The notes under the pieces were generated by a model. It had not been told where the DNA came from and made no database searches. It saw nothing but the letters and a program-made list of their open reading frames with translations. From Acidimicrobiales bacterium (GTDB taxonomy: Bacteria > Actinomycetota > Acidimicrobiia > Acidimicrobiales > JACCXE01): a stretch of DNA of 35,649 nucleotides. Positions 2,925 to 5,599 of this stretch are shown piece after piece. The DNA is taken from the NCBI GenBank assembly GCA_035546775.1, contig DASZWD010000029.1, positions 1 through 35,649 on the forward strand, written 5' to 3'. Numbering within the stretch: the stretch's first letter is position 1; every line of letters begins with the position of its first letter. The translations under genes were made by a program, and so were the position numbers.

Positions 2925-3671
2925 GTGCCCGACGAATCCGACGAAGGCCTCGTCTTATGGGAAAGCGCGACGGACTGGTGGCAGTCGGGATTCACCGAAG
3001 GCGCCGACCCCGAGTACGAGGAGCAGATCCTGCCGTTGGCGCGCGCCGAACTGGCCGGGCGCGCCCGGGTGCTCGACGTCGGCTGCGGTGAGGGGCAGAT
3101 CGCCCGGCTGGCGGTCGCCGATTGCGGGGCGACTCTCGCCGTCGGCGTCGATCCGACGCGCTCGCAGATCGTCGAGGCGGCGTTGCGGGGCGGGGGAGCG
3201 CACTACGCGCGGTCCTTCGCCGAACCGCTGCCGTTCCGTGACGCGTCCTTCGACGCCGTTGTCGCCTGTCTCGTGTTCGAGCACATCGACAACGCCCGCG
3301 CCGCGATCGAAGAAGTCGCGCGCGTCCTTGCGCCGGGCGGCCGGTTCTGCTTCTTCCTCAACCACCCGCTGCTGCAGACGCCGGGCTCGGGCTGGGTGAT
3401 CGACGTCGACCTCGACGAGCAGTACTGGCGCATCGGCCCGTACCTGGTCGAGGACCACTCGGTCGAGGAGATCCACCCCGGCGTGCACCTGCCGTTCGTG
3501 CACCGGCCGCTGTCGGTGTACGTGAACGCCCTCATCGACGCCGGCCTCGTCCTCGGCCGCATGCTCGAGCCCGCACCACCCGACGGCTTCCTCGCCATCG
3601 CGGACGAATACCGCGACGCCGCCGACATCCCCCGCCTCCTCTACCTGCGCGCCGACAAACCGTCCGCGTAA
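2925..3671 (+). CDS. SAM-dependent class I methyltransferase
   Basis: 248 residues. The glycine-rich motif I (RVLDVGCGEGQIARLAV, about residues 48-64), a second acidic strand end (GVDPTRSQIVEA) and the post-motif DASFDAVVACLVFEHIDN identify a Methyltransf_11-type Rossmann methyltransferase. It probably transfers a methyl group from S-adenosylmethionine to a small molecule in the cytoplasm; the acceptor cannot be read from the sequence. GTG at 2925 is chosen because TAGATT lies 6 nt upstream and because the protein begins there with the acidic leader usual for this group. Its last 31 nt overlap the convergent AbiEi-DUF559 gene. Confidence 0.9.
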   Translation: MPDESDEGLVLWESATDWWQSGFTEGADPEYEEQILPLARAELAGRARVLDVGCGEGQIARLAVADCGATLAVGVDPTRSQIVEAALRGGGAHYARSFAEPLPFRDASFDAVVACLVFEHIDNARAAIEEVARVLAPGGRFCFFLNHPLLQTPGSGWVIDVDLDEQYWRIGPYLVEDHSVEEIHPGVHLPFVHRPLSVYVNALIDAGLVLGRMLEPAPPDGFLAIADEYRDAADIPRLLYLRADKPSA

Positions 3672-4606
3672 GCCCGCACCCGCCCGGCGTACGCCTTCTT
3701 CAGTTCGGCGACGACACCGGCGGGCGTCCGGGTCACGTGCGCCCAGGTGTATTCGACGATGAGGTAGCCGGCGACGGAGAGACGGTTCCGTCGGGTCTTG
3801 TTCGCCTGAAAGGCGGCGAGCGAGGAGTGGTACAGCCAACCTTCGACCTCAACGGCCAACAGGAGGTCGGGCCAGGAGAAGTCGAGCCTGTACTCGCCGT
3901 GCTCGCCAACGATGAGTTCACACCGCGGCTGCGGTAAGCCGGCTTTGTCGATCAAGCGACGCATCTTCGCTTCGAGCACCGACGGAGGATGGCTGCCGGT
4001 GATGCCCGCATCGTCGAGAAGATGGCGGAGTGCGGCGGTGCCGCGCACTCCCATCTTGCCTCGGCGTTCGAGCTCGGCCAGCGCCGACATCGGCGTCACG
4101 ACCCGGTTGGCGATCCCGCGATCGAGCGCGAGTTGGACCTTCTGCAGGCTCATCACCGCTCCGAGGTCGAGGAGCGTTTCCGCCGCCGTCGTAACCGGAA
4201 CGCCCTTGCGGACCTCGGCTGGCAGCAACGGTGTCTGCGTGCGGTGAACCCGAACGTCCCTCCAGCGCAGCCGCACATCGGCCGGGATCGTGACCTCCGG
4301 AGTCTGCTCATACGGCGTCATGGCCCAGAGCCAGGCGCCAGCCCGATGCGATGACCGCGTGCCGTCGACACCAGTCGCCAACACTGCTGCCATGTGTGCC
4401 TGCGCGGGCGTCGACGGATGGCCCTCGACCACGAACACCCCGCGGCGAAAGCGTCGCCACGCGCCCTGCCCGATCCGCGTCCGCAGCGTTCTGCGACTGA
4501 CGCCAGCATCGAGCGCCTGCGTCACCGTGAACAGCCCGAGCTGCATCGCCGCAATGGCGAGCAGTCGTGACTCGGCCTCCCAATCCATCTCCACCTCTTT
4601 GGGCAT
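3641..4606 (-). CDS. AbiEi-type winged-helix protein fused to a DUF559 (PD-(D/E)XK) domain
   Basis: 321 residues. The N-terminal ~60 residues (AIAAMQLGLFTVTQALDAGVS, RTLRTRI) form the AbiEi antitoxin-type winged helix. A middle AbiEi-like region (RRFRRGVFVVEG, VTTAAETLLDLGAV) follows. The C-terminal third is a DUF559/VSR-like nuclease fold with D242 and E253-V-E255 in the PD-(D/E)XK arrangement. AbiEi proteins are type IV antitoxins and transcriptional autorepressors; no AbiEii nucleotidyltransferase toxin lies nearby. ATG at 4606 has GGAG 7 nt upstream; ATG at 4588 with AGAGGTGG just upstream is an equally possible start (315 residues). Three copies of a 10-bp word cover the promoter and start region. 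Function unknown: DNA-end processing, autoregulated nuclease or solitary defence protein are all possible. Confidence 0.85.
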   Translation of the reverse strand: MPKEVEMDWEAESRLLAIAAMQLGLFTVTQALDAGVSRRTLRTRIGQGAWRRFRRGVFVVEGHPSTPAQAHMAAVLATGVDGTRSSHRAGAWLWAMTPYEQTPEVTIPADVRLRWRDVRVHRTQTPLLPAEVRKGVPVTTAAETLLDLGAVMSLQKVQLALDRGIANRVVTPMSALAELERRGKMGVRGTAALRHLLDDAGITGSHPPSVLEAKMRRLIDKAGLPQPRCELIVGEHGEYRLDFSWPDLLLAVEVEGWLYHSSLAAFQANKTRRNRLSVAGYLIVEYTWAHVTRTPAGVVAELKKAYAGRVRAYADGLSARR

Positions 4607-4665
4607 CTGTGGTCTCCAGGCGACCGCCAGAGCCCAAAGAGTTCGCAAGAGGTCGCTCTTTGGGC
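4595..4665. promoter_or_regulatory. Candidate autoregulatory operator: three copies of GCCCAAAGAG
   Basis: GCCCAAAGAG at 4632-4641 and its exact reverse complement at 4656-4665 form a perfect 10-bp inverted repeat with a 14-nt spacer. A third copy (as CTCTTTGGGC) is at 4595-4604, overlapping the ATG at 4606 of the AbiEi-DUF559 gene. AbiEi antitoxins are known to repress their own promoter by binding inverted repeats, so this gene product is the natural candidate ligand. The divergent rapZ start is about 80 nt away. Confidence 0.6.
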
Positions 4666-4741: not shown

Positions 4742-5599
4742 GTGGGCGAACTTGTCGTGGTCGCAGGGATGTCGGGGGCGGGGCGGTCGACGGCGGCTGC
4801 CGTGTTCGAAGACGCCGGGTGGTTCGTGGTCGACAACCTGCCGCCGGAGTTGGCCGGCCGTGTGGTCGACCTCGTCGCCCGCCCGGGCGGGACGGACCGC
4901 ATCGCGCTCGTCGTCGGCCGCAGCGGGACCGAACTCGGCGGGCTCGACGACGCCATCCGCGACCTGCGCTCCACCGGCACCCCCGTGCGCGTCCTCTACC
5001 TCGACGCCGCCGACGACGTGCTCGTCCGCCGGTACGAAGGCACGAGACGGCGACACCCGATCGAGGGTGAAGGCGTCGAAGGCGCCATCGCCGTCGAGCG
5101 GGCGCTGCTGGCGCCGGTCCGCCAGCTGGCCGACGTGGTTGTCGACACCAGCGAGCTCAACGTCCACCAGCTGCGCGACCGCATCCTCGACCTCTTCAGC
5201 GACCACTCCCGACCCGAGGTCGGACTGCGCATCGCCGTCGTCTCCTTCGGGTACTCCCACGGCTTGCCCCGCGACGCCGACCTCGTGTTCGACTGCCGCT
5301 TCCTCCCGAACCCGCACTGGATCCCCGAGTTGCGCCCCCACACGGGCCTCGACGTCGACGTGCGCGACTACGTCCTCGGCCAACCCGCCGCCAAGGAGTT
5401 CCTCGAGAAGATCGACGATCTCTTGGAACTCCTCCTGCCGGCCTACGTCGAGGAAGGCAAGGCGTACCTCACCATCGCGGTCGGCTGCACCGGCGGGCGC
5501 CACCGCTCGGTCGCCATCGCCAACGCACTCCACGAGATGATCGAGGCGCACGGCTACGACGCCAACATCAGCCACCGCGACGTCTCGAAGAAGACATGA
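4742..5599 (+). CDS. rapZ: RapZ-family nucleotide-binding protein
   Basis: 285 residues, full length for the YvcJ/RapZ family. An N-terminal P-loop (GMSGAGRST, residues 9-17) is followed by FEDAGWFVVDNLPPEL, then YLDAADDVLVRRYEGTRRRHP, the FGYSHGLPRDADLVFDCRFLPNP signature, and the C-terminal GCTGGRHRSVAIA loop. In E. coli RapZ is an RNA-binding adaptor that senses glucosamine-6-phosphate; in Gram-positives YvcJ hydrolyses GTP and is linked to competence and cell-wall precursor control. The GTG start has only a weak ribosome site, and the protein begins directly with the P-loop strand as usual. It overlaps yvcK by 4 nt (ATGA), implying translational coupling. Confidence 0.95.
   Translation: MGELVVVAGMSGAGRSTAAAVFEDAGWFVVDNLPPELAGRVVDLVARPGGTDRIALVVGRSGTELGGLDDAIRDLRSTGTPVRVLYLDAADDVLVRRYEGTRRRHPIEGEGVEGAIAVERALLAPVRQLADVVVDTSELNVHQLRDRILDLFSDHSRPEVGLRIAVVSFGYSHGLPRDADLVFDCRFLPNPHWIPELRPHTGLDVDVRDYVLGQPAAKEFLEKIDDLLELLLPAYVEEGKAYLTIAVGCTGGRHRSVAIANALHEMIEAHGYDANISHRDVSKKT

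Follow-up and report, generated by a model that had tools for sequence, protein, structure and literature searches.

An actinobacterial gene family joining an AbiEi-type winged helix to a homing-endonuclease-like domain is a candidate REPtron-like system of dispersed palindromes

In the literature covered, dispersed bacterial palindromes (REPs) are linked to one enzyme class, the RAYT/TnpA-REP transposase. In a REPtron, the TnpA-REP gene has its cognate palindromes beside it and the dispersed copies co-evolve with the enzyme; how REPs spread is an open question in this field (PMC8266576). Palindromes of another kind serve the AbiE type IV toxin–antitoxin (TA) systems: a characterised AbiEi antitoxin binds inverted 11-bp repeats that lie 27 bp apart and extend to 23-bp arms, and through them represses its own promoter (PMC3985639). 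Searches of open-licence papers for a link of AbiEi to DUF559, to palindromes or to homing and mobile genes yielded nothing relevant. The gene described here, from an Acidimicrobiales bacterium, belongs to a large, apparently undescribed actinobacterial family and is probably a member of a one-gene REPtron-like system, in which a winged-helix (wHTH)–nuclease protein has its own palindromes as recognition sites and probably spreads or converts them. Computation shows the domain composition, flanking on two sides, dispersal through the genome, palindromes that are specific to each gene and co-vary with its protein, and one empty site that holds a single palindrome.

Like REPs or REPINs and their TnpA-REP (RAYT) enzymes, the system has dispersed intergenic palindromes, a cognate enzyme gene flanked by them, and co-variation of the two. 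Unlike in REPtrons, the enzyme combines a wHTH with a PD-(D/E)XK/EDxHD-type nuclease instead of being a Y1 HUH transposase, and the palindromes are longer than REPs (∼45–65 bp) and resemble AbiEi operators. TnpA-REP (RAYT) is a Y1/HUH tyrosine transposase, which the protein studied here lacks (its only Pfam matches are AbiEi_4 and MTES_1575/DUF559); membership in the TnpA-REP REPtron family was rejected because the enzymes are unrelated, and the analogy is one of function.

Within the window (the whole stretch of 35,649 nucleotides that was analysed), the gene lies on the minus strand at 3641..4588, with its stop codon (TAG) at 3641-3643, and encodes 315 amino acids from its likely start, M8. 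Since homologues align to the protein from about residue 8 on, translation probably starts at this methionine (4586-4588), and the ATG upstream of it is probably not used. Surrounding genes are uvrC, a DinB-like gene, a methyltransferase gene (2925..3671, plus strand), the 3′ end of which overlaps that of the nuclease gene, the divergent rapZ (4742..5599, plus strand) and a CofD-like gene. No AbiEii nucleotidyltransferase toxin gene was present among the neighbours scanned in the window; the gene is solitary, as a preliminary description of this DNA had stated.

The same description had proposed an AbiEi-type wHTH joined to a nuclease, and this was borne out. The AbiEi-like N-terminal region (residues 1–180; 4049..4588, minus strand) is matched by AbiEi_4 of Pfam (residues 15–60, E 3e-9) and by PADLOC AbiEi profiles (residues 4–180, E 1e-27). 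For the nuclease domain (residues 204–315; 3644..3979, minus strand), the C-terminal Pfam match to MTES_1575/DUF559 is sub-threshold, and a PD-(D/E)XK-type domain is clear in the fold search. When an AF2 model (50-sequence alignment; pLDDT 94, pTM 0.74) was submitted to Foldseek, the top matches were the Streptococcus agalactiae AbiEi antitoxin (6y8q, E 1e-5), Rv2827c, and the catalytic domain of the homing endonuclease I-Bth0305I (probability 1.0, TM 0.82 on the domain); a profile search agreed (3hrl, E 4e-12; I-Bth0305I 3r3p, E 3e-4). The predicted fold is thus that of an AbiEi antitoxin plus an I-Bth0305I homing-endonuclease domain. AbiE TA systems share the AbiEi wHTH fold with this protein (Foldseek, PADLOC) but have AbiEii, whereas the gene studied here has no AbiEii and carries the extra nuclease domain. 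The likeness to I-Bth0305I extends from the nuclease fold to a long target (PMC3943268); however, the present gene lies outside introns, has an AbiEi module that would recognise the DNA, and its putative target is palindromic and multi-copy.

In the alignment, which included the window protein, E206, D236 and E247 are invariant (50 of 50 sequences). Position 249 is D in 49 of the 50, the window protein alone having E, and position 263 is D in 47, with N in the window protein. The nuclease fold and conserved acidic residues of EDxHD/Vsr-like homing endonucleases thus recur in the AbiEi/nuclease family at the family level, the window copy itself carrying E249 and N263. The window gene also has a palindrome on its 5′ side only. 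Because the 3′ palindrome is lost and two near-invariant nuclease residues are substituted, this copy may be a decaying or degenerate member of the family.

Three exact copies of the 10-mer GCCCAAAGAG are present upstream of the gene, as first described: copy 1 at 4595-4604 (minus strand), copy 2 at 4632-4641 (plus strand) and copy 3 at 4656-4665 (minus strand). Copies 1 and 2 form the ends of a 47-bp imperfect palindrome (family A; 4595..4641; CTCTTTGGGC-N27-GCCCAAAGAG) with 22-bp arms and a 3-bp loop, which sits in the intergenic region common to the gene and rapZ. Its 10-N27-10 plan has the geometry of the AbiE operator (11-N27-11; PMC3985639), which makes it a putative operator here; because of this shared plan, it is most simply read as the binding site of the protein's own AbiEi module. 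The preliminary description was right in placing at the gene start an inverted repeat with the geometry of an AbiEi operator, but had paired copies 2 and 3; that pair is a less likely operator, the constant-length palindrome family pairing copies 1 and 2 across the 27-bp gap. Copy 3 is taken for one remaining half-site of a second palindrome that has decayed; C17:114671 has a similar layout, with a half-site after a 14-bp spacer. The repeats had also been placed over the start codon; translation is unlikely to begin at the ATG that abuts copy 1, and if M8 is the start, the palindrome end probably overlaps the ribosome-binding region.

The exact 10-mer occurs 10 times in the 3.75-Mb genome. At an unlinked locus (C47) two exact copies are spaced as copies 1 and 2, and further loci show the 47-bp imperfect palindrome built in the same way (22-bp arms, 3-bp loop). 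A covariance model of family A, trained on six copies (which match by construction), returned eight full-length sites in the genome, all of 47 bp and with E down to 7e-16, and little else; those beyond the training set are C5:20281 and C17:114671. DNA folding z-scores of −3.8 to −7.7 mark the palindromes as strong hairpins. Six of the eight are intergenic, including the one upstream of the nuclease gene, those between convergent genes (C47, C48, C18 and C17) and that between fliR-like and flhB-like genes (C5). The other two lie inside coding sequence, in the 3′ end of a glycerol-kinase-like gene (G000:C4:88401-88447) and in the low-complexity N-terminus of an RNase E/G-like gene (C72:205852-205898); these gene names were read from translations.

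Both the 10-mer and the complete palindrome are found again at unlinked loci, which rules out a private operator, and a 10-mer common elsewhere in the genome was among the findings that the preliminary description itself had named as refuting it. That description had seen in the gene a one-gene TA or phage-defence unit. The AbiEi module does belong to an antitoxin family and the nuclease domain could be toxic, yet the AbiEii partner is absent, the neighbours are housekeeping genes, homologue searches found no matches on plasmids and a single weak one in phages, and the linked dispersed palindromes, which also occur on both sides of related genes and alone at one empty site, are left unexplained; we consider such a unit very improbable. 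The phage match is a distant homologue (31% identity) in a small unannotated record from human faeces (MT837367.1:3944-4657).

About 12 diverged paralogues of the gene are present in the same genome. There is also a second family of palindromes in this genome (B), with five dispersed copies, one of them beside a paralogue on C2, which carries the same family B palindrome on each side. Three related paralogues (L005, L007 and L009) have palindromes with differing stems and the common centre GGGTCTTTCT. In order-level relatives, family A is essentially absent (mostly weak matches, the best 4.6e-8 in G005), which indicates that the arrangement alone is conserved and not the palindrome sequence. 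The same-genus genome G001 illustrates this. Its orthologue, which sits in the same setting (rapZ – gene – methyltransferase – uvrC), lacks GCCCAAAGAG but has a different palindrome of ∼47 bp before its start and directly after its stop. In the window, the overlap of the methyltransferase and nuclease genes lies where this 3′ palindrome would fall. The G001 orthologue is disrupted (L041:495-1427), its open frame spanning only query residues 38–262 with a shortened C-terminal nuclease part, and still retains the two near-identical flanking palindromes.

Homologous loci were collected from the genome itself, its order and GTDB contigs; the contig scan used a five-sequence alignment, since a 17-sequence one was too diverse. 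Matching palindromes 5′ and 3′ of the gene were found at 59 of 118 loci, compared with 0 of 600 mismatched pairs and 7 of 534 window pairs shifted to neighbouring DNA; the remaining half had no matching flank pair by this test. Among the matching loci, 48 of 59 were palindromic beyond the 95th percentile of shuffles (median span 51 bp). On the 3′ side the palindrome starts at the stop codon (median −3 bp), and the two flanking copies are often in direct orientation. The palindrome sequence differs from gene to gene, and paralogue clades each own a palindrome, e.g., CGATCTTGCACTTT and GATCGCGCTCGATCC in the same Micromonospora genomes. In contrast to AbiE TA systems, many homologues have the palindrome at their 3′ end as well as genome-wide.

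In six Micromonospora genomes the palindrome TGATCATGANGTT has roughly 11–70 copies per genome (reversed-pattern control, 0–1). Between purA and purD, the gene was present at 25 of the 30 loci examined (two more were cut by contig ends), nearly all 25 with palindromes on both sides. For the 22 species with both copies at purA–gene–purD, 5′ and 3′ palindromes differed by 0.09 within species and by 0.26 between species (permutation p=2e-4). The co-variation of repeat and protein that the preliminary description had put forward as a check was found: palindrome distance tracked protein distance after purD distance was removed (partial r=0.61, p=0.0005), whereas host distance explained almost nothing of it (r=0.11). 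Some of this correlation could stem from joint inheritance of gene and flanks. CAAG and CATG palindromes are told apart without exception by residues 106, 109 and 112 of the protein, which fall in a loop joining two strands of the AbiEi-like region. Unlinked copies favour the type of the gene's palindrome (median CAAG share 0.62 vs 0.27, p=0.003), a tendency and not a rule, several paralogues being present per genome; an exact dissociation of CAAG and CATG between genomes was tried and failed, leaving the statistical tendency alone.

Three genomes without the purA–purD gene had 0, 3 and 16 palindrome copies compared with 14–108 in the others (p=0.005), and two of the three had no homologue anywhere at E<1e-8. 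These data bear on a passive explanation, by which the 5′ palindrome is an autoregulatory operator, the 3′ one a terminator-like hairpin, and the dispersed copies unrelated intergenic hairpins or leftovers. AbiEi proteins do autorepress via inverted repeats of the same geometry, and the palindromes are strong hairpins. Nevertheless, the 5′ and 3′ copies are identical in sequence type and change together, the dispersed copies are of the same sequence family as the flanking ones, and they are few where the purA–purD gene is missing, which renders this explanation improbable.

At purA–purD, G076 (L196) has no gene but one remaining palindrome; G051 and G058 have neither gene nor palindrome there, and the clean empty site with one palindrome is thus a single case among three gene-less sites. 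A dispersed repeat, flanking on both sides and a solo copy at an empty site together indicate a REP- or homing-like system. Under classical homing, the palindrome would be the target: the nuclease would cut solo palindromes, the gene would be copied in to yield palindrome–gene–palindrome, and solo copies would be empty or vacated sites. The often direct orientation of the two flanks, the solo palindrome of G076, the I-Bth0305I-like nuclease (I-Bth0305I is reported to dimerise on a ∼60-bp target; PMC3943268) and the diverged paralogues in one genome all fit such a course of events. On the other hand, solo copies (tens) far exceed genes (0–5 per Micromonospora genome), the gene's location at purA–purD is constant across the genus, and a gene flanked twice by intact target would be exposed to self-cutting. 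Classical homing is therefore considered unlikely, though less so than the passive explanation.

For the preferred, REPtron-like reading, we infer binding, cutting and repair-driven spread of the palindromes. The AbiEi module would bind the long palindrome (two inverted half-sites, ∼47–57 bp). Because one copy covers the promoter and start of the gene, the gene probably represses itself as well; intact members have another copy directly at their stop codon. The nuclease domain at the C-terminus, of I-Bth0305I fold, would probably cut at or near cognate copies, and repair from other copies would convert, homogenise and spread the palindrome across the genome, occasionally together with the gene that it flanks. 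Whether Actinobacteria harbour a widespread selfish or domesticated class of this kind, in which an antitoxin-type module and a homing-endonuclease domain replicate their own operator as a dispersed repeat, driven by double-strand breaks and not by HUH chemistry, is a broader proposal that we put forward tentatively, with the odds slightly against it.

The data suggest that bacterial REP-like repeats have a second type of enzyme behind them, unrelated to the first. If true, the AbiEi/nuclease family would be a second and independent case that uses different chemistry, its recognition module coming from a group with well-characterised operators, and a function would be explained for common genes that carry the label of a solitary AbiEi antitoxin or a DUF559 protein and may be wrongly counted among defence genes. 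The natural protein/palindrome pairs make recognition and spread directly testable.

Solo palindromes also occupy the unlinked carB–pyrD gap in many Micromonospora species and are missing from it in several others. The family of the solo palindrome varies there by species (L216-L245), and the gap seems to be a hotspot or a place where palindromes are converted. At two loci of G003 (L050 and L060), tandem pairs of palindromes lie on each side of the gene, reminiscent of REPINs, which have two REPs per unit.
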